Below are positions 516 to 17,089 of a stretch of 34,247 bases of DNA, piece after piece. The notes under the pieces are model-generated. The model was not told the DNA's origin and ran no database searches. It saw nothing but the letters and a program-made list of their open reading frames with translations. Position numbers and translations under genes: made by a program. Position 1 is the stretch's first letter, and every line of letters starts with the position of its first letter. The DNA is from Gemmatimonadota bacterium (GTDB lineage Bacteria > Gemmatimonadota > Gemmatimonadetes > Palauibacterales > Palauibacteraceae). Where the stretch lies: the NCBI GenBank assembly GCA_022825725.1, contig JAJDWE010000014.1, positions 1-34,247 of the forward strand, given 5' to 3'.

Positions 516-1523
516 ATGGAACCCACGAGAGGGTGTCGACCGTCGTCCGAACGTCGAACCCCGGTCCGGTTCGCGGCGTTCGGTTTGGCCGCGCTCGCCC
601 TTGCCGGCTGTTCGTCATCCGGGGAGGAGGCGGCGTTTCCGAGCCGGGGCATCGAGATCGTCTCGTGGGCGACGCCGGGCGGACCGACGGACCTCCTCTC
701 GCGGGCCCTGGCCGAGGCCGCGCCGCCGCATTTCGAGGGCCGGCGCGTCACCGTCATGACCCGGCAGGGCGGGGCGGGCGCCGCGGGCATGCAGTACCTG
801 CAGGGACGGGAAGGCGACCCGCACGTGCTCGGCGTCTTCACGGCGAGCGGCACGGTGAACATGGCGACGGGGCGGATTCCGTTCTCTCCCGGGGATTTCA
901 CCCCCATCCTCCGCATCCAGATCGACCCCTTCCTGGTCGCCGTGCGGGACGACAGTCCCTTCCACACGCTCGGCGACCTGTTCGAGGCGGCACACGCCCG
1001 ACCCGGCGAGGTCTCGGTGTCGGGGTTCGGGGCGGCGTCGGCCCACTTCCTCGGCTTCGCCCGGCTGAGGGCGGCGGCGGGAGACCCGGACGTGCGGTGG
1101 ATCGCGTACGAGGGGTCGGCGGACGCGGTGGTGGCGGCGCTCGGGGGACACACGGACGCGGCGCACACGAACTACAACATCGTGCGCGAGCACCTGCGGG
1201 CGGGGACGATGCGGGTGCTGGGGGTGGCGCTTCCCGTCGAGGCGCTGCCGGAGACGCCGAGCTACGCGGAGCAGGGGTACGACCTGACGCCGGTCCACTG
1301 GCGCGGGGTCGTGGGACCGCCGGGGCTGGATCCGGCGCTGCGGGCGGATCTGCGCGAGCGGCTGATGGCCGCGATCGAGGACCCGGGGTTCCGCGAGTAC
1401 ATGGAGCGGGCCGCGCTCGAATACGCGACGATGGCGGACGCGGACGCGTTCGGCGTCTGGATGGCCGAGGAGGTGGCGACGAGCCGGGACATGCTGCGGC
1501 GGCTGGGAATCCTGGATGAGTAG
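516..1523 (+). CDS. tctC: TctC-type solute-binding lipoprotein of a tripartite tricarboxylate transporter
   Basis: Captures a carboxylate outside the inner membrane and hands it to the TctAB permease. The 335-residue protein begins with a basic stretch, a hydrophobic segment and the lipobox LALAGC (Cys32). The mature part carries the family pattern: IEIVSWATPGG near the start, GGAGAAGMQYL, and a late VVGPPGLDP segment, as in Bug/TctC proteins. Length is normal. I chose ATG 516 because it places the signal peptide at the N-terminus; the frame opens further upstream at 414, but that extension is arginine-rich and adds no domain. No strong ribosome site precedes it. Many TctC proteins are soluble and periplasmic, so lipid anchoring is a variation. 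The 3' end overlaps tctB by 8 bp. Substrate cannot be read from sequence. Confidence 0.88.
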   Translation: MEPTRGCRPSSERRTPVRFAAFGLAALALAGCSSSGEEAAFPSRGIEIVSWATPGGPTDLLSRALAEAAPPHFEGRRVTVMTRQGGAGAAGMQYLQGREGDPHVLGVFTASGTVNMATGRIPFSPGDFTPILRIQIDPFLVAVRDDSPFHTLGDLFEAAHARPGEVSVSGFGAASAHFLGFARLRAAAGDPDVRWIAYEGSADAVVAALGGHTDAAHTNYNIVREHLRAGTMRVLGVALPVEALPETPSYAEQGYDLTPVHWRGVVGPPGLDPALRADLRERLMAAIEDPGFREYMERAALEYATMADADAFGVWMAEEVATSRDMLRRLGILDE

Positions 1524-2013
1524 CGCCTCCGCGGGCGGGACGACGCGGTTGGGCCTGCTCGCGGAAGCCGGACTGCTCGCCGTCGTGGCGGCGGGGGTGC
1601 TGCTGGACTCGCGCTCCTACCCCGGATCGCTGGCCGAGGGGGCGCCGGGTCCGGCCTTCTTCCCGCGGCTGCTCGCCGTGCTGCTCATGGGCTGCGCGGC
1701 GTGGCTCGCGGTCCGGGCCGCGCGGCAGCCGCCGGAATCGGACCCGGGACGTTCCCGCGGGAACGCGGCCCCGGGCTCGGGAGCCGGCCGCGGGGTCCGT
1801 CTGGCGCTCGGAGCCGCGTGGATCGCCGTCTTCCTCCTCGCCTGGCCCCGGCTCGGGACCGTCCTGTCGGTTCCGCTCCTCGTCGCCGGGCTGATGTGGC
1901 TGACGGGCGAGCGCTCGCGGGTCGCGCTCATCGCCGTGCCGCTCGGCTTCGCCGCCTTCATCTACCTCGTGTTCATGGTGGTGCTCGGCGTACCGCTCCC
2001 GTCCGGGTTCTGA
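1516..2013 (+). CDS. tctB: TctB, small membrane subunit of tripartite tricarboxylate transporter
   Basis: A 165-residue membrane protein with about four hydrophobic segments: residues 10-27, 40-62, and two in the C-terminal half ending in FIYLVFMVVLGVPLPSG. That C-terminal pattern, the PGPAFFPRLLA motif near residue 40 and the position between a TctC and a TctA identify it as TctB, the poorly conserved small subunit. The ATG overlaps the tctC stop and tctA follows after 10 bp, so the three are almost certainly co-translated. The loop around residues 60-95 is Pro/Gly/Arg-rich and probably cytoplasmic. Confidence 0.85.
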   Translation: MSSASAGGTTRLGLLAEAGLLAVVAAGVLLDSRSYPGSLAEGAPGPAFFPRLLAVLLMGCAAWLAVRAARQPPESDPGRSRGNAAPGSGAGRGVRLALGAAWIAVFLLAWPRLGTVLSVPLLVAGLMWLTGERSRVALIAVPLGFAAFIYLVFMVVLGVPLPSGF

Positions 2014-2023
2014 CCCGCCGCCC

Positions 2024-3580
2024 GTGTCCGCCTTCCTCGACGGCCTGCTGACGGCGATCCAGCCCGGGAACCTCGCCGCGCTCCTCGCGGGGAGCCTCCT
2101 TGGCGTGTTCGCGGGCGCGATGCCGGGGCTGAGTTCGACGGTGGGCCTCGCGCTTGTCCTCCCCGTCACCTTCGCGCTCGACCCGACGCCGGCGCTCCTG
2201 ATGATGGTCTCGATCTACATGGCGGCGGAGTACGGCGGTTCGATCACCGCGATCGCGATCGGCGTGCCGGGGAGTTCGCCCGCCCTCGCCACGACCTTCG
2301 ACGGCTACGCCATGACGCGGCGCGGCGAGGCGGGACGCGCGCTCGGAATCTCCCTCTTCTCCAGCATGAGCGGCGGGCTCCTCGGCACCGTCCTTCTCGT
2401 CCTGGCGCTGGGGCCGCTGTCGCGGGCGGCGATCGCCTTCGGGCCGGCGGAGTACTTCGGGCTCGGCGTGTTCGGGCTCTCCATCGTCGCGAACCTCGTG
2501 GGAAAGGACCCGTTCAAGGGGATCGTGAGCGCGCTCCTCGGACTTCTCTTCTTCGTCGTCGGGCTCGACGTGCTCACGGGGGCGCCTCGGCTCACGTTCG
2601 GCACGAACGCGCTCATGGACGGTCTCGGGCTCGTGCCCATGCTGATCGGCTTCTTCGCGATCGCGGAGGCGCTCGCGGCGGTGACGGGCCGGCGCAGGTC
2701 GACGCCCCCCGGGAGCGGCATCGCGGGCGCCCTCCCGAAGGCCCGCGAGCTGTTCGGGCTGTGGCGCACGATTCTGCGGGGATCGGCCATCGGGGGCCTG
2801 ATCGGAGCCATCCCCGGGGCCGGGGCGACGATCGCCTCCATCGTGGCGTGGAACGAGGAGCGCCGGGTCTCGAAGACGCCGGAGCGGTTCGGGACGGGCC
2901 TGCCGGCGGGAATCGCCGCGCCGGAGGCCGCGAACAACTCCTGCGTGGGGGCGGCGATGATCCCGCTCCTCGCGCTCGGAATCCCCGGTTCCGCCAGCGC
3001 CGCGGTCCTCCTCGGGGGCCTCACCGTGCAGGGGGTGGCGCCCGGCCCGCTGCTCATGACGGAGCGCTCCGAACTCGTCTACGCGCTGTACGCGGGGTTC
3101 GTGGTGGCGGTGCTCCTCATGCTGGCCGTGGGGCGCCTCGGGATCCCCCTCTGGACGCGGGTGGTGCGGCTGCGGCCGTCGATCCTGATGCCGCTCGTCG
3201 TCGCGATCTCCCTCGTGGGCACGTTTTCCCTCCGCGGCAACGCGGCGGATGCGTGGGCCGCCCTCTTCTTCGGGCTCGTCGGCTTCGCTATGCTGCGAGG
3301 CGGCTACCCGCTGGCGCCGGCGGTGCTCGGCCTCATCCTCGGTCCCATGATCGAGACGAACTATCGGCGGGCGCTGAGCCTGTCCTCCGGGTCGCACTCG
3401 GTCTTCCTGGAGAGCCCGATCAGCCTGGTGCTGCTCGTGCTGGCGGCGGTGAGCTTCGCGGCCCCGGCGGTCCGCAGCCGCCTGATTTCCGGGAGGGCGC
3501 GAGGGCCCGAACCCGAACCCGACGCACCCGAAGGCCCCGACACACACGACCACGAACCCCGGCGAGAGGAACACGAGTGA
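2024..3580 (+). CDS. tctA: TctA, large permease subunit of tripartite tricarboxylate transporter
   Basis: A 518-residue polytopic membrane protein of the usual TctA length. The two diagnostic inverted-repeat motifs are present: GAMPGLSSTVGLALVLP near residue 30 and IGAIPGAGATIASIVAWNEE near residue 260, followed by APEAANNSCVGAAMIPLLAL and GIPGSASAAVLLGG. These build the substrate channel driven by an ion gradient. The start is GTG at 2024, 10 bp after tctB. The C-terminus is a charged, proline-rich tail. The stop overlaps the GTG of the next gene by 4 bp (GTGA), coupling transport to the MmgE/PrpD enzyme. Confidence 0.95.
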   Translation: MSAFLDGLLTAIQPGNLAALLAGSLLGVFAGAMPGLSSTVGLALVLPVTFALDPTPALLMMVSIYMAAEYGGSITAIAIGVPGSSPALATTFDGYAMTRRGEAGRALGISLFSSMSGGLLGTVLLVLALGPLSRAAIAFGPAEYFGLGVFGLSIVANLVGKDPFKGIVSALLGLLFFVVGLDVLTGAPRLTFGTNALMDGLGLVPMLIGFFAIAEALAAVTGRRRSTPPGSGIAGALPKARELFGLWRTILRGSAIGGLIGAIPGAGATIASIVAWNEERRVSKTPERFGTGLPAGIAAPEAANNSCVGAAMIPLLALGIPGSASAAVLLGGLTVQGVAPGPLLMTERSELVYALYAGFVVAVLLMLAVGRLGIPLWTRVVRLRPSILMPLVVAISLVGTFSLRGNAADAWAALFFGLVGFAMLRGGYPLAPAVLGLILGPMIETNYRRALSLSSGSHSVFLESPISLVLLVLAAVSFAAPAVRSRLISGRARGPEPEPDAPEGPDTHDHEPRREEHE

Positions 3581-4992
3581 GCGCGACGCGTGCGGTCATC
3601 GACTTCATACTCGAGACATCGATCGACGACTTCCCCGAGAGACTGCTGGCCGAGGGGCGGCGGTGCGTGACCGACGGCACCGGCGTGATCCTGGCCGGCT
3701 CGACGGACGCCTGCTCGCGCATCGTCCGCGACCAGATCGCCGTGCAGGGCGGGAAGGCGCAGGCGACGGTGCTGGGCCCGCCGGACGTGCGCGCCCCCGC
3801 CTCGCTCGCCGCCCGGGCGAACGGCACGGCGGGCCACGCGATGGATTTCGACGACACGCAGCTCTCGAACGCGCCGGACCGGATCTTCGGGCTCCTCACG
3901 CACCCGACGGTCGCCCCGCTCGCGGCGGGATACGCGATGGCGGAGAGGGAAGGGGCCACGGGGGCCGGGTTCCTGGAGGCCTTCCTCATCGGGTTCGAGG
4001 TGGAGTGCAAGATCGCCGAGGCGATCGACCCGAGGCACTACATGGAGGGGTTCCACTCGACGGCGACGATCGGCACGCTCGGCGCCTGCGCCACGGCGGC
4101 GAAGCTGGCCGGCCTGGGGGCGGACGACCTCGCGATGGCGCTCGGGATCGCGGCGAGCCTGTCGTCGGGGATCCGGCTCGGGTTCGGCACGATGACGAAG
4201 CCGCTCCACGCGGGCCGGGCCGCGGAAAACGGCATCCTGGCGGTCGACCTCGCCGCCCGCGGCTTCACCGCCGGGCACGACGCGCTGGAGGCGCCGTGGG
4301 GCTTCTTCCGCGTCTTCGGCGGCGGCTTCGAGCCCGAGCGGCTGGTCGGCGCCCTGGGCTCCCCGTACACGTTGCTCGACCCCGGCGTGTCCGTGAAGCC
4401 GTTCCCGTCGGGGAGCCTCGGCCACCCCAGCATGGCCGCGATGCTCGAACTCGTCACCGAGCACGACCTCGCGCCCGATGATGTCGCCGAAATCACCTTC
4501 CGCGCCGGGCACAACATCCTCAACCCGCTCCGCTATCCCGTGCCGCGCAACGAACTCGAGGCGAAGTTCTGCATCCCCTTCGTCCTCTCCAGCATCGTCC
4601 TTCGGCGGCGGGCCGGGATCCGCGAGTTCCACGACGACTTCGTCCTCTCGGAGGAGGCGGCGGACATGATGCGCCGGGTCACGGTGACGTTCGACGAGGA
4701 GATCGACGCCCGCGGCTACGACCGCATGCGGAGCGCGATCGACGTGCGGCTCCGCGACGGAACCGAGCTTCACACCGAGGCGGACACGTATCCCGGAGGA
4801 CCGGAGCGGCCGCTCACCCGGGAGGAGCTGCACGACAAGTTCCGGGACTGCGCGAGCCTCGCGATGGACGACGCGCGGATCGACGGCGCGCTGGACCGGC
4901 TCGAACGCGTGGACGACCTCGCGCACATCGCCGACCTCGTGGAAGCGCTCTCGACGGCCCCGGCCCGCGCCGCCGCCGGAGTCCCCGCGTGA
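3577..4992 (+). CDS. MmgE/PrpD family protein (2-methylcitrate dehydratase / cis-aconitate decarboxylase-like)
   Basis: A 471-residue cytoplasmic enzyme of the MmgE/PrpD superfamily, which dehydrates 2-methylcitrate or decarboxylates cis-aconitate-like acids without an iron-sulfur cluster. Visible family motifs are GHAMDFDDTQ near residue 90, GFHSTATIGT near residue 160 and TKPLHAGRAAENG near residue 210, which hold the Asp, Thr, His and Lys residues lining the active site in characterised members. The helical and lid domains both look complete. The GTG start overlaps the tctA stop by 4 bp and follows an AGAGGA ribosome site at 3565-3570. Being the first gene after the transporter, it likely acts on the imported acid. 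No other methylcitrate-cycle gene (prpB, prpC) is present, so a substrate other than 2-methylcitrate is quite possible. Confidence 0.9.
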   Translation: MSATRAVIDFILETSIDDFPERLLAEGRRCVTDGTGVILAGSTDACSRIVRDQIAVQGGKAQATVLGPPDVRAPASLAARANGTAGHAMDFDDTQLSNAPDRIFGLLTHPTVAPLAAGYAMAEREGATGAGFLEAFLIGFEVECKIAEAIDPRHYMEGFHSTATIGTLGACATAAKLAGLGADDLAMALGIAASLSSGIRLGFGTMTKPLHAGRAAENGILAVDLAARGFTAGHDALEAPWGFFRVFGGGFEPERLVGALGSPYTLLDPGVSVKPFPSGSLGHPSMAAMLELVTEHDLAPDDVAEITFRAGHNILNPLRYPVPRNELEAKFCIPFVLSSIVLRRRAGIREFHDDFVLSEEAADMMRRVTVTFDEEIDARGYDRMRSAIDVRLRDGTELHTEADTYPGGPERPLTREELHDKFRDCASLAMDDARIDGALDRLERVDDLAHIADLVEALSTAPARAAAGVPA

Positions 4993-6968
4993 TGCGCCGC
5001 GCTCCCCGCGGGCTCGCGCTGCTGGGCGCGCTGTGGCTCGCGGCCTGCGGCGATGCGGCCCGCTCGGGCGAGGGGACGGACGCGGCCCCGGACGCGGCGG
5101 CGGACGCGGCGGGGCGCGGACCCTACGATGCGCTCCAGGTGGAGACGGATCTCATGGTGGAGATGCGCGACGGGATCCGCCTCGCGACGGACGTCTACCG
5201 TCCCTCGCGCGAATACGAGCCCGTGGATGGACCGTTTCCCGTCCTCCTCCACCGGACCCCGTACGACAAGACCTCGCGCGGACTCGTGGACCAGGCGCGC
5301 TGGTTCACGACGCACGGCTACGTCGTCGTGCTGCAGGACACGCGCGGGCTCTACGCCTCCGAGGGCACCTTCCAGAAGTACCACGAGTTCGACGCCCCCG
5401 ACGGCTACGACACGATCGAGTGGATCACGGGGCTCGACTACGCGGAACCCTCCGTCGGCATGTGGGGCACCTCCTACGGCGCGCACACGCAGGCCGACGC
5501 CGCCAAGCTGAACCCGCCGGGACTCCGGACGCTCGCGCTCACGATGGGAGGCCTCTCCGACGCCTGGACGCACAAGGTCCGCAACCACGGCGCGCTCGAA
5601 CTCGGCCAGCAGCTCGGCTGGGCCCACCTCCAGCTCGCCGCGGTGGCGGACGACCCCGAGATCCGCCTCCGGCTCGCCGAGGAGCCGCCGTCGGACTGGT
5701 TCCCCGACACGCCCTTCCAAAAGGGGGAGAACCCGCTCTCCGTCGCCCCGAATTTCGAGGACTACTACCTCACGATGCAAAACCACGGGGACTACGACGA
5801 ATATTTTCGAGGCATCGGCCGCAACTGGGTCGAGTACTACGACGAGACGTCGGACGTCCCGATGCTGCACGTCGGCGGCTGGTACGACTCCTACGCGCCG
5901 GGCACGATCCAGAGCTTCGTCGAACTCTCGCGGCGGAAGTCGTCGCCCATGACGCTCCTCATGGGCCCGTGGACGCACGGCGGGAACAGCCGCTCCTACG
6001 CCGGCGACATCGAGTTCGGAGCCGAGGCCGCGGTCGAGGATTTCTCGCGCGAGTTCCACCTGCGCTGGTTCGACCGGCACCTCCGCGGGCAGGTCGCGAA
6101 TGAGCTGTTCGAGGGCGACGACCGGCTCGCGGGCGAGGCCGCCGGTCCCGTCACGATCTTCGTCATGGGAGGCGGCGACGGCCGCCGCGACGGGAACGGA
6201 CGGCTCTTCCACGGCGGCGAGTGGCGCACCGCGCAGGCCTGGCCGCTCGAGGGGACGGAAGTGACGTCCTTCTACCTCCGCGCGGGGGGCGCGCTCACGC
6301 GCGAGGCTCCCGGCGCGGACGAGGGGTCGACGTCCTACACCTACGATCCCGAGCACCCGGTGCCCACGATCGGCGGGGCCTTCTCCGGCGCGCTGAAGCG
6401 GGGCGGCTACGACCAGCGCGAGCGCACCTTCCGCTCGCTCGAGGGCGGCTCCGAGAACGGCTTCTTCGCCTCCGAGGTCGACGGCCGCCGGACCGCCGAC
6501 CGGACCGACGTCCTCGTGTTCGAGACCGCGCCCCTGGCGGAGGACCTGGAGGTCATCGGCCCGGTCACCGCCACGCTGTGGACCTCGTCCACCGCCCCCG
6601 ACACCGACTTCACCGCCAAGCTCGTCGACGTCTATCCCCCGAACGCAGACTATCCCGAGGGCTTCGACCTCAACATCACCGACGGCATCCTCCGCGCCCG
6701 CTACCGGGATTCCCGCGAGCGGGAGACGCTGATGACGCCCGGAGAGGTCTACGAGATGGAGATCCGGCTCTTCCCGACGGCGAACCGGTTCCGGGCCGGC
6801 CACCGCATCCGGCTCGAAATCTCGAGTTCCAACTATCCCCGCTTCGACGTGAACCCCAACACCGGCGAACCGCTGGGGCGCCACACGCGCATGGTCCCGG
6901 CCGACAACACCGTCCATCACGCCGCCGCCCGCGCGTCGGCGATCCACCTCCCGCTCCAAAGGAGATAG
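4992..6968 (+). CDS. CocE/NonD family lipoprotein hydrolase (X-Pro dipeptidyl-peptidase S15-like)
   Basis: A 658-residue serine hydrolase exported as a lipoprotein: the signal peptide ends in WLAAC (Cys19). Domains in order are the alpha/beta hydrolase core (about residues 50-350) and a C-terminal jelly-roll (about 400-650). The triad is visible as Ser161 in GTSYG, Asp299 in GGWYDSY and His329 in GPWTHGG. Family members cleave esters, acyl groups or X-Pro peptides. ATG 4992 overlaps the preceding stop by one base (TGATG); the GTG one codon earlier is less likely. An envelope ester or amide hydrolase downstream of an organic-acid importer suggests it releases the transported acid from a conjugate, which is inference. 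Confidence 0.9.
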   Translation: MRRAPRGLALLGALWLAACGDAARSGEGTDAAPDAAADAAGRGPYDALQVETDLMVEMRDGIRLATDVYRPSREYEPVDGPFPVLLHRTPYDKTSRGLVDQARWFTTHGYVVVLQDTRGLYASEGTFQKYHEFDAPDGYDTIEWITGLDYAEPSVGMWGTSYGAHTQADAAKLNPPGLRTLALTMGGLSDAWTHKVRNHGALELGQQLGWAHLQLAAVADDPEIRLRLAEEPPSDWFPDTPFQKGENPLSVAPNFEDYYLTMQNHGDYDEYFRGIGRNWVEYYDETSDVPMLHVGGWYDSYAPGTIQSFVELSRRKSSPMTLLMGPWTHGGNSRSYAGDIEFGAEAAVEDFSREFHLRWFDRHLRGQVANELFEGDDRLAGEAAGPVTIFVMGGGDGRRDGNGRLFHGGEWRTAQAWPLEGTEVTSFYLRAGGALTREAPGADEGSTSYTYDPEHPVPTIGGAFSGALKRGGYDQRERTFRSLEGGSENGFFASEVDGRRTADRTDVLVFETAPLAEDLEVIGPVTATLWTSSTAPDTDFTAKLVDVYPPNADYPEGFDLNITDGILRARYRDSRERETLMTPGEVYEMEIRLFPTANRFRAGHRIRLEISSSNYPRFDVNPNTGEPLGRHTRMVPADNTVHHAAARASAIHLPLQRR

Positions 6969-6971
6969 ACC

Positions 6972-7376
6972 GTGCAAGACGTCAACTGGCTCGCCATCCT
7001 GGTCGCCGGAGTCGTCCCCCTGGTCGTCGGCTTCCTGTGGTACGGCTCGATCTTCGGCAAGCAGTGGCTCGCGCTCATGGAGACCACCGCCGAGGAGATC
7101 CAGAAGGACTTCAACCCGGTGAAGACGCACGGGGCGAGTTTCGTCCTCTCGCTCGTCACCGCCTACGTCCTCGCGCAACTCCTCGCCGTGATGGGCGGCT
7201 CGGGCGCGATGATCGGAGTCCACGTGGGGCTGCTGGTCACGATCGGCTTCGTCCTCAACGTCGGCTACCAGGGCGTGGCCTACGAGCAGCGAAAGCCCGG
7301 AATCTTCTTCCTGAGCCTCGGCTACAACGCCGTCGCCCTCATCGGACAGGCGGTCGTGCTCGCCGTCTGGCCCTGA
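6972..7376 (+). CDS. DUF1761 family membrane protein
   Basis: A 134-residue protein with four predicted membrane helices: about residues 6-24, 52-70, 80-100 and 113-132. The pattern VNWLAILVAGVVPLVVGFLWYG, then FGKQW and a helix beginning SFVLSLVTAYVLA, matches the DUF1761 family, whose function is unknown. The GTG start at 6972 is preceded by an excellent ribosome site (AAAGGAGA, 6958-6965) lying in the end of the preceding gene, 3 bp away. It is the last gene of the tct operon, and no clear terminator follows. Confidence 0.88.
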   Translation: MQDVNWLAILVAGVVPLVVGFLWYGSIFGKQWLALMETTAEEIQKDFNPVKTHGASFVLSLVTAYVLAQLLAVMGGSGAMIGVHVGLLVTIGFVLNVGYQGVAYEQRKPGIFFLSLGYNAVALIGQAVVLAVWP

Positions 7377-7466: not shown

Positions 7467-8876
7467 ATGGATCTGAATGAGCTGCTCCTCCGGCCCGAGG
7501 GGAAGACCCTCGAGTTCAAACAGGACCTTTCATCCCCTCGGGGATTCCTGCGCACCGTCGTGGCGTTCGCGAACACGGCGGGCGGTACCGTTCTCATCGG
7601 CGTGGAAGATCGGACGCGGCACGTCAGGGGCGTCCGCTGCGCGCTCGACATGGAAGAGCGGGCCGCGAGCCTGATCAGCGATTCCATCCAGCCCGCGCTC
7701 TGGCCGGACCTCGAGATTCTGAGGTTCCGCAGCGCGCAGGTACTCGCCGTGCGCGTCCATCCCAGCCCCGCGCGACCGCATTTCATCGCCCGGCAGGGAC
7801 TCGAAGCGGGCACGTACGTGCGGGTGGGCTCGACCAACCGCCAGGCGGACCTTCCACTGATCGCGGAGATGCGGCGTTCCGCCACGGGCGAGTCCTACGA
7901 CGAGCAGCCGGTGCCGGCGCTCGACTCGGAAGCGGTGGACTTCCGAGCGGCTTCGGAGTTGTTCGCCTCGGTCCGGAAACTGAGGCGGCGCGACCTGGAG
8001 ACCCTCCGCCTCGTGACCACGCATCAGGGCCGGTCCGTACCCACGGTCGCCGGCGTGCTGCTGTTCGGCGGCGACCGCCTCGAGCACTTCCCCGACGCCT
8101 GGATTCAGGCCGGCCGCTTTGCCGGGACGGTCCGGTCGGTCATCGTGGACCAGACGCGGATCGAGGGGCCCCCGATCGAGGCGATCGAATCGGCCGTCTC
8201 GTTCGTGAAGAAGCACCTGCTGCACGGCGCCACCATCGGTCCGGTGCGGCGCATCGACCACTGGAATCTGCCGCCCGAAGCCGTGCGGGAAGCCATCACC
8301 AACGCCGTGGTGCATACGGATTATGCACAGCGCGGCGCCCCGATCCGCGTTGCGATCTTCGATGACCGCGTGGAGATCGAAAACCCCGGCCTGCTGCCGT
8401 TCGGGCTCACGCTGGAGGATCTGCCGCGCGGCGTCTCGAAGCTCAGGAACCGGGCGCTCGGCCGCGTCTTCCAGGAACTCGGGCTCGTGGAACAGTGGGG
8501 GAGCGGGGCGCCGCGCATGATCGGCGCCTGTCGGGACGCGGGTCTGCCGGCGCCGGTCTGGGAGGAGATCGCGTTCCGGCTGCGCGTCACGCTGCGCACG
8601 GAGAAGGTGGGTCCCGCGCTGGTGGACGACCGGGACGGCACGATCCTGCGTGTGCTGGAGAGCGGGGTCGGACAGGGCACGCGCGACATCGCCGAAGCCG
8701 TGGGCCTCTCGACCCGCTCCACCCGCACGCGGCTGGCCCGGCTCGTCGAACGCGGGCTCGTGCGCGAAGTCGGCACGAGTCCGAACGATCCGCGGCGGGT
8801 CTACGTCAGGTCGCCCTCGGACGCCCCGGCCCCGGACGACCTGGACGACTTCCGGGGCTTGAGGACGAAGCGGTAG
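7467..8876 (+). CDS. Putative transcriptional regulator with Schlafen AlbA_2 and HATPase_c_4-like domains
   Basis: A 469-residue protein. Residues 5-120 form the Schlafen AlbA_2 domain: LEFKQDL, then FANTAGGTVLIGVED, then YVRVGSTN. Residues 265-360 carry the GHKL-ATPase-like part (VREAITNAVVHTDY, DDRVEIENPG, LGLVEQWGSGAPRM). Residues 390-450 look like a winged helix-turn-helix (DIAEAVGLSTRSTRTRLARL, then VERGLVREVG). This is the common 'ATP-dependent DNA helicase RecG-related' or COG2865-type regulator; no helicase domain is present. It stands alone after the tct operon, with its own candidate promoter. Its last 76 bp overlap a small convergent gene. Family is confident; targets are unknown. 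Confidence 0.88.
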   Translation: MDLNELLLRPEGKTLEFKQDLSSPRGFLRTVVAFANTAGGTVLIGVEDRTRHVRGVRCALDMEERAASLISDSIQPALWPDLEILRFRSAQVLAVRVHPSPARPHFIARQGLEAGTYVRVGSTNRQADLPLIAEMRRSATGESYDEQPVPALDSEAVDFRAASELFASVRKLRRRDLETLRLVTTHQGRSVPTVAGVLLFGGDRLEHFPDAWIQAGRFAGTVRSVIVDQTRIEGPPIEAIESAVSFVKKHLLHGATIGPVRRIDHWNLPPEAVREAITNAVVHTDYAQRGAPIRVAIFDDRVEIENPGLLPFGLTLEDLPRGVSKLRNRALGRVFQELGLVEQWGSGAPRMIGACRDAGLPAPVWEEIAFRLRVTLRTEKVGPALVDDRDGTILRVLESGVGQGTRDIAEAVGLSTRSTRTRLARLVERGLVREVGTSPNDPRRVYVRSPSDAPAPDDLDDFRGLRTKR

Positions 8877-15943: not shown

Positions 15944-17089
15944 ATACCGAGGCCACGCCTCATGGGCGCGATCCGGCGGGGGTTGTCCGAGGCTCCGGTG
16001 GTGGCTCTCCTGGGCGCGCGCCAGGTGGGGAAGACGACCCTTGCCGAGCAGGTCGTGTCCGCCACGGAGTCCGCCATCATCTTCGACCTGGAGAAGCGGG
16101 GCGAGAGGGCGGCTCTGTCGGCGACGCCCGAAATGCTGCTCCGCAACGCGGAAGGCCTCGTCGTCATCGACGAAATCCAGCGCATGCCGGAACTCTTCGA
16201 GGTCCTTCGGCCCATCTGCGACGCCCGCGACCGCAAGGCCGTGTTCCTCGTCCTGGGCAGCGCCTCGCTGGACCTGATCGAGGGGGTTTCCGAGACGCTG
16301 GCCGGCCGCGTCCAGTTCGTGGATGTGGGTGGCTTTTCCCTCGCCGAAGCCGGACCGGAGCATCAGGATCGGCTGTGGATGAGAGGCGGCTTTCCGCGCG
16401 CGTACCTCGCGCCCTCGAGCGGGGCGTGGTCCCGCTGGATGGAGTCCTTTACGCGCACGTTCCTCGAACAGGACATTCCGGGGCTGGGCTCACGGGTGTC
16501 GTCCGCGGCGCTGGGCCGCTTCTGGAGGATGCTGGCGCACTATCACGGGCAGACCTGGAATGCGGCCGAACTGGGACGCTCCATGGACGCGAGCGTGACC
16601 GCCGTGAGGAACTACCGCGACCTGCTGTCGGGTTCGTTCATGATCCGCCAACTGCCGCCGTGGTTCGAGAATCTGGGCAAGCGGCTCGTGAAGTCGCCGA
16701 AGGTCTTCATCCGCGACACCGGCGTTCTCCATTCCCTGCTGGGGATACGGGAGATGACCGAGTTGGCGGTGAATCCCCGCTACGGCGCCAGTTGGGAGGG
16801 GTTCGCCCTCGAGCAGACGCTCCTGGAGCACGGAGAGCGGGAGGCGTACTTCTACGGAACCCAGCGGGGGGCGGAACTGGACCTTCTGCTCCTGCGGCGA
16901 GGACGACGCTGGGGCTTCGAGTTCAAGTGCACGGAGGCGCCCCGGACCACGAAGTCGATGCACGTCGTGATCCGGGACCTGAACCTCGAACGTCTATGGG
17001 TCGTCTACCCGGGGGATGTCGAGTATCCGCTGACCGACACCATCACCGCCCTGCCGCTCAAGCGAATCGGCGACATCTCCCTGAGTTAG
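15932..17089 (+). CDS. AAA family ATPase with C-terminal DUF4143 domain
   Basis: A 385-residue ATPase. Walker A is GARQVGKTT (residues 28-36), Walker B is VVIDEIQRMPE (Asp80, Glu81), and FLVLGSASLDL near residue 105 is the sensor-1 strand. The C-terminal half is DUF4143: FTRTFLEQDIPGL, GQTWNAAELGRSM-type helix-turn-helix near 215-240, the nuclease-like fold AELDLLLLRRG, and FEFKCTEA near the end. The family is widespread, often horizontally mobile, and its function is not settled; a restriction-endonuclease-like core is usually noted. I chose ATG 15932 rather than TTG 15902 because GGAG sits 6 bases upstream. The start lies inside a striking palindrome. Confidence 0.93.
   Translation: MQQSIPRPRLMGAIRRGLSEAPVVALLGARQVGKTTLAEQVVSATESAIIFDLEKRGERAALSATPEMLLRNAEGLVVIDEIQRMPELFEVLRPICDARDRKAVFLVLGSASLDLIEGVSETLAGRVQFVDVGGFSLAEAGPEHQDRLWMRGGFPRAYLAPSSGAWSRWMESFTRTFLEQDIPGLGSRVSSAALGRFWRMLAHYHGQTWNAAELGRSMDASVTAVRNYRDLLSGSFMIRQLPPWFENLGKRLVKSPKVFIRDTGVLHSLLGIREMTELAVNPRYGASWEGFALEQTLLEHGEREAYFYGTQRGAELDLLLLRRGRRWGFEFKCTEAPRTTKSMHVVIRDLNLERLWVVYPGDVEYPLTDTITALPLKRIGDISLS

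Follow-up and report, generated by a model that had tools for sequence, protein, structure and literature searches.

Introduction

In fumonisin degradation, the carboxylesterase FumD frees tricarballylate from its conjugate (PMC4843849). In the terephthalate system (tphC-tpiBA), an ester is hydrolysed externally, and the resulting dicarboxylate is imported by a tripartite tricarboxylate transporter (TTT) (PMC9888244). A 1,4-dicarboxylate backbone is common to all known substrates of the MmgE/PrpD fold. In iminodisuccinate (IDS) epimerase, a member of this fold, the conserved putative catalytic residues are H85, D88, H99, H150, K198 and K266, and the two bases are His99 and Tyr145; other members catalyse dehydration or decarboxylation (PMC12290011). 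The second-base tyrosine is also present in Bacillus MmgE, an enzyme that has not been shown to be an isomerase (PMC7347537).

We analysed a stretch of DNA of 34,247 nucleotides (the window) from a sponge- and coral-associated bacterium with a genome of 3.49 Mb that is 97.7% complete. Its closest named relatives include the Candidatus Palauibacter MAGs of the order Palauibacterales, Gemmatimonadota (PMC10469786). The window encodes a TTT, an MmgE/PrpD enzyme and a CocE hydrolase. A first-pass annotation had proposed that the hydrolase frees an acid, that TctC captures it and TctAB imports it, and that MmgE/PrpD then dehydrates or decarboxylates it.

Results

An operon of six genes in the window

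Judged by order, spacing and conservation, the six genes listed in Table 1 form a real operon that is conserved in Palauibacter. They had been described as overlapping or lying within 10 bp of each other, and all six ORFs were found where the first-pass annotation had placed them, with gaps of -8, +10, -4, -4 and +3 bp from tctC to DUF1761; the identical five gaps were found in L075, L077, L078 and L079. The Pfam matches of all six ORFs exceed the gathering scores. When the genes were compared with those of three relatives, dN/dS was 0.08-0.41 across all six, which indicates that all are maintained under purifying selection. The genes for TctC, TctB and TctA are adjacent and all score above their family cut-offs, as expected of the subunits of a TTT, and the nearest solved structures of TctC are the TTT substrate-binding proteins 25hk and 4x9t. 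The lipoboxes of TctC and CocE are also present in relatives from two phyla. An AlbA_2/RecG-like gene at 7467, 90 bp beyond DUF1761, is outside the conserved unit. A promoter and terminator scan of the locus gave no result.

Table 1. Genes of the operon and the basis of their assignment (positions in the window).
Gene	Coordinates	Strand	Product and evidence
tctC	516..1523	+	Solute-binding lipoprotein of TTT; PF03401, 93 bits; lipobox LAGC
tctB	1516..2013	+	Small TTT membrane subunit; PF07331, 70.6 bits
tctA	2024..3580	+	Large TTT membrane subunit; PF01970, 450 bits
mmgE/prpD	3577..4992	+	PF03972 and PF19305; predicted to isomerise or epimerise a C2-substituted succinate by a two-base mechanism
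cocE	4989..6968	+	S15/CocE-NonD serine hydrolase lipoprotein, predicted exported; lipobox LAAC; TIGR00976
DUF1761	6972..7376	+	Small membrane protein; PF08570, 89 bits; genus-specific addition to the operon

Elsewhere in the window, positions 1-112, at the end of the contig, are filled by 14 perfect tandem copies of TGCTCGCC, and the assembly probably stopped there. AAA_14/DUF4143 ATPase genes are found at 15998-17089 of the window and at L095:4793-5947, and some of the operon copies carried by Acidobacteriota have such a gene directly upstream of tctC.

Distribution and transfer of the operon

Orthologues of both mmgE and tctA were detected in 13 of the 16 other genomes of the genus. The description as a six-gene operon holds for Palauibacter, whose loci retain all six genes, but outside the genus the operon has five: DUF1761 belongs to it at Palauibacter loci only, and tctC-tctB-tctA-mmgE-cocE, the core conserved unit, occurs without it in sponge-associated Acidobacteriota (L089-L096) and in the Gemmatimonadota loci L108 and L110. 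At the Acidobacteriota loci tctA and mmgE are separated by ~90 bp to 1.8 kb, and a nitrilase-family gene is located closely 3' of cocE. Another Gemmatimonadota lineage (L081-L088, L097 and L100) carries the TTT genes and mmgE only, and in soil and groundwater members the parts are rearranged. The gene order at L102 is two cocE, mmgE, tctC, tctB, tctA, and the acidobacterial L104 has no TTT, but an SDF (GltP/DctA-family) symporter gene located ~1 kb upstream of its mmgE-cocE pair. In L104, L108 and L110, in most Palauibacter loci and in every one of the eight Acidobacteriota loci that have the two genes, mmgE and cocE overlap by 4 bp; L080, with a gap of +31, is an exception.

The gene-neighbourhood survey that the first-pass annotation had called for revealed that both the hydrolase and the MmgE/PrpD gene do accompany the transporter in related genomes. 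CocE was absent nearby from 9 of 18 Gemmatimonadota MmgE-TTT loci and from all alphaproteobacterial ones examined (many of the compared loci come from MAGs), and hence the hydrolase is dispensable for the TTT-MmgE pair.

Two further arrangements were observed. One Palauibacter MAG has two versions of the operon (G015:C82 and G015:C87; L066 and L067), one with cocE and the other cut at the contig end, with a TctB that resembles that of the cocE-less lineage. At L071 and L072 (G058:C14 and G003:C9), a second type of TTT locus has the order tctC, thiamine-diphosphate enzyme, tctB, tctA, and its TctA is 44-45% identical to that of the window.

Between the window and the Acidobacteriota loci L089-L096, TctC, TctA, MmgE and CocE are 74-84% identical and TctB ~50%, whereas the housekeeping control MiaB, which is encoded in the window, shares 41-43% with that of five symbiotic Acidobacteriota. 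Relative to the L081-L088 group the values are 60-62% for MiaB and ~90% for MmgE and TctA. The higher identity of the operon genes indicates that they moved together between phyla and lineages, and by this measure the operon has been transferred horizontally as a unit between Gemmatimonadota and Acidobacteriota. That symbionts of the two phyla share it points to a substrate linked to the host or the habitat. Gammaproteobacteria were rejected as hosts of the operon: the MiaB proteins of the MAGs so named are 61-62% identical to that of the window, as in Gemmatimonadetes-labelled MAGs, and L085, L097 and L100, titled Gammaproteobacteria, are probably mislabelled records.

The MmgE/PrpD enzyme

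The whole genome contains a single MmgE/PrpD-family gene. The best PDB match of its product is IDS epimerase (2hp3, E=4e-50), and cis-aconitate decarboxylase is also among the best. In a FastTree phylogeny of 56 MmgE/PrpD sequences, the window protein falls in its own clade with proteins of soil Acidobacteriota and Gemmatimonadota (54-59% identity) and of Alphaproteobacteria (45-50%). It does not group with IDS epimerase, with mammalian cis-aconitate decarboxylase (ACOD1) or with the methylsuccinate isomerase encoded in the Pseudomonas cluster. Members of the window protein's clade are usually encoded near TTT genes, which were found within ~9 kb of mmgE at all 27 symbiont or marine loci, at 22 of 23 alphaproteobacterial loci and, in the sequence available, at one of the eight deeper loci.

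In the residue table the window protein has the full two-base set (H87, D90, H109, Y155, H160, K208 and K274). ACOD1 has Met154 where the window protein has Tyr155, and the window position that matches His277, a residue that ACOD1 requires, is not His; the ACOD1 chain used is a variant entry with Ala at the published His103, so that this cell of the table is uninformative. Since the two-base residues of IDS epimerase and methylsuccinate isomerase are kept and the ACOD1 features are absent, we infer that the enzyme is more likely to be a substituted-succinate isomerase than a dehydratase or a decarboxylase. The dehydration or decarboxylation first proposed for this step fits these residues poorly, and cis-aconitate decarboxylase in particular is disfavoured. 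Elimination or dehydration, which appears less likely than isomerisation, is given some weight because Bacillus MmgE carries the same tyrosine.

The same route of hydrolysis and import could end in a lyase, by PrpD-like dehydration of a citrate-like hydroxy acid or ACOD1-like decarboxylation of an aconitate-like acid. Such activities are known in the fold (PMC12290011), and the citrate and tricarballylate genes that neighbour CocE relatives (see below) belong to a chemistry that leads to cis-aconitate. The two ACOD1 positions speak against this reading, however, and so do the searches for methylcitrate-cycle functions: the only PrpD-type model matched was NF042438, at 28.6 bits against a cut-off of 950, and no match to PrpB (TIGR02317) was found in the 97.7% complete genome, while control genomes did match. 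We consider a lyase somewhat unlikely. The methylcitrate cycle itself was rejected on the PrpB and PrpD results, in agreement with the earlier view that the substrate lies outside it.

A role in the degradation of methylsuccinate or itaconate, like that of the pseudomonad itaconate/methylsuccinate cluster, was also considered. The residues of the window MmgE equal those of methylsuccinate isomerase, several rhizobial relatives (45-49%) adjoin genes for acyl-CoA dehydrogenase, CoA-transferase III, MaoC-like and CitE-like proteins, and the host genome has an unlinked MaoC/FAS1-DH protein that is 49% identical to the rhizobial one. However, the window protein is only 30-33% identical to the Pseudomonas and Shinella cluster proteins and is placed in a separate clade. 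Moreover, published isomerase genes always adjoin a gene for methylsuccinyl-CoA dehydrogenase, which is absent from this operon, and the genome has just one CoA-transferase III (37%), and its HpcH/HpaI match is weak; both are unlinked. With unlinked, partial homologues and a different MmgE clade, this pathway was rejected as highly improbable.

Among the alphaproteobacterial loci, those of Rhizobiales L111, L118, L121, L122, L124 and L128 combine TTT genes with two MmgE/PrpD paralogues, SDR and MR_MLE genes, and add acyl-CoA dehydrogenase, CoA-transferase III, MaoC and CitE genes, which makes them a large carboxylate catabolic island. On a Phyllobacterium plasmid (L144), the arrangement mmgE-tctC-tctB-tctA-mmgE-fabG has tartrate dehydrogenase and PdxA-like genes in its vicinity, a hint that the alphaproteobacterial branch handles hydroxy-dicarboxylates.

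The CocE hydrolase and its transporter neighbours

The window CocE scored 388.6 bits with TIGR00976 (cut-off 66.3) and matched cocaine esterase 4p08 with E=9e-75; it has a PepX_C domain, and the catalytic motifs with Ser (GMWGTSY), Asp (GWYD) and His (GPWTH) are intact. The family is broad, and the host genome has several paralogues. When 395 genomes of the phylum were searched, 28 outside Palauibacter proved to have relatives at 51-59% identity, and the neighbours were read at 19 of these Gemmatimonadota loci. At 17 of the 19 a tri- or dicarboxylate transporter gene lies beside the CocE relative, the nearest relatives being 50-55% identical. Transporter specificity is taken from family models; the names TTT and CitMHS do not define a substrate. 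CitMHS genes adjoin cocE at 12 loci, and the three tested scored 562-596 bits against the 260-bit cut-off of the NCBIfam citrate:proton symporter model. TcuC-like symporter genes are present at two loci (L187, 657 versus 445 bits; L191, 76% identical) and DASS genes at two others (L183 and L198, 301 and 421 versus 199 bits; that of L198 is on the opposite strand, ~630 bp away). At L181, cocE is followed by genes for a TcuA-type tricarballylate dehydrogenase (570 versus 369 bits) and a putative TctC-like lipoprotein and then by tctA and tctB; the lipoprotein is TctC-like by eye only and without a Pfam match. None of these transporters was found beside the CocE relative at L188 and L192. The TcuA and TTT arrangement is repeated at L074 in G014, a Palauibacter relative that also carries a window-type operon; TcuA matches were 563-570 versus 369 bits. 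A search limited to TTT and MmgE had suggested that the CocE relatives of other Gemmatimonadota stand alone, and this was overturned when all neighbours were read.

As a control, 20 loci of the same phylum that carry other CocE paralogues (28-41% identity) were read, and none of these transporter genes was present; the control queries came from the clade's own neighbours, a choice that favours the clade. For independent loci, a split of 17/19 versus 0/20 would arise by chance with a probability of ~3e-9 (hypergeometric), a value that overstates the case because the loci are related. Each of the 12 genomes checked has 2-5 CitMHS-family genes, so chance adjacency to cocE should be rare. Along the CocE tree the transporter family switches several times, each time to another carboxylate transporter, and the clade pairs with five transporter families (CitMHS, TcuC, DASS, TTT and SDF). 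As the other CocE paralogues are without such neighbours, this clade-specific link lends support to hydrolysis outside the cell followed by import of the acid, the order proposed in the first-pass annotation. The mmgE-cocE overlap of L104, kept where an SDF symporter is encoded nearby in place of the TTT, is consistent with the same order.

Alternatively, TTT-MmgE and CocE might be separate functions that share an operon, with CocE a general peptidase or esterase whose association is positional only. The loci that have TTT-MmgE without CocE would fit this, as would the several CocE paralogues per genome. It leaves unexplained why carboxylate transporter genes accompany the clade at 17/19 loci, and again at L074, L102 and L104, but not the controls, why the overlap with mmgE outlasts the TTT, and why transporters swap while CocE stays; we judge it quite unlikely. 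In the open-access literature searched, 'CocE' and 'tripartite tricarboxylate' are not mentioned together, and co-mentions of 'CocE' and 'citrate transporter' are single uses in papers whose titles and abstracts do not describe the link.

Discussion

We propose, at about even confidence, that the locus is an operon for scavenging in the periplasm. A tri- or dicarboxylic acid bound as an ester or amide would be released beyond the inner membrane through hydrolysis by the lipoprotein CocE, then captured by the second lipoprotein, TctC, and imported by TctAB. Cytoplasmic MmgE/PrpD would then change the C2 stereocentre of the imported acid, making it usable by central metabolism, with His109 and Tyr155 as the bases and Lys208 and Lys274 binding the carboxylates and the enolate. 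The direction of flow, the ester or amide chemistry on a carboxylate conjugate and isomerisation in preference to elimination are inferred, and the parallels with TcuA/TcuC and CitMHS suggest a substrate that resembles citrate or tricarballylate, or is some other substituted succinate.

A broader proposal, which we hold a shade less firmly, is that the exported hydrolases of the CocE clade form a class of their own, which frees citrate- or tricarballylate-type acids from naturally occurring conjugates so that dedicated importers can take them up, and whose partner may be any of five transporter families; the MmgE-TTT form would add a new MmgE/PrpD isomerase and would have spread between phyla of sponge symbionts. 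Because the same kind of hydrolase stands beside importers of five families in related bacteria, CocE beside citrate-type importers probably marks an undescribed acid-scavenging strategy. These results provide a testable function class for the CocE clade and for an uncharacterised MmgE/PrpD clade, both present in several bacterial groups, and suggest that in sponges, corals and soil, tri- and dicarboxylic acids in conjugated form serve as a real nutrient.

Compared with IDS epimerase (2HP0/2HP3) and the (S)-(R)-methylsuccinate isomerase (PA0881 type), the window MmgE has the same fold and all seven binding and catalytic residues, including the second-base Tyr, but it shares ~30% identity with them and belongs to another clade, and its locus has TTT and CocE neighbours and is without CoA-ester genes. 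As to tricarballylate utilisation, CocE relatives are found with TcuA and TTT (L074, L181) or with TcuC (L187, L191), and the acid class is therefore probably shared with the Tcu system; the window locus has MmgE instead of TcuA and TTT instead of TcuC, and to our knowledge the Tcu system includes no hydrolase. FumD is a known analogue of the proposed CocE step, as an esterase that releases a tricarboxylic acid from a conjugate, although it is not, as far as we know, of the CocE family. The terephthalate system, in which a TTT takes up the terephthalate that polyester breakdown yields, is another analogue; there, the PET hydrolase is encoded outside the tph operon and catabolism is oxygenase-based, with no MmgE. 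Finally, the window CocE has the fold, the catalytic motifs and the PepX_C domain in common with cocaine esterase and alpha-amino acid ester hydrolase but differs from them in that it is a predicted exported lipoprotein encoded in a carboxylate-uptake operon.
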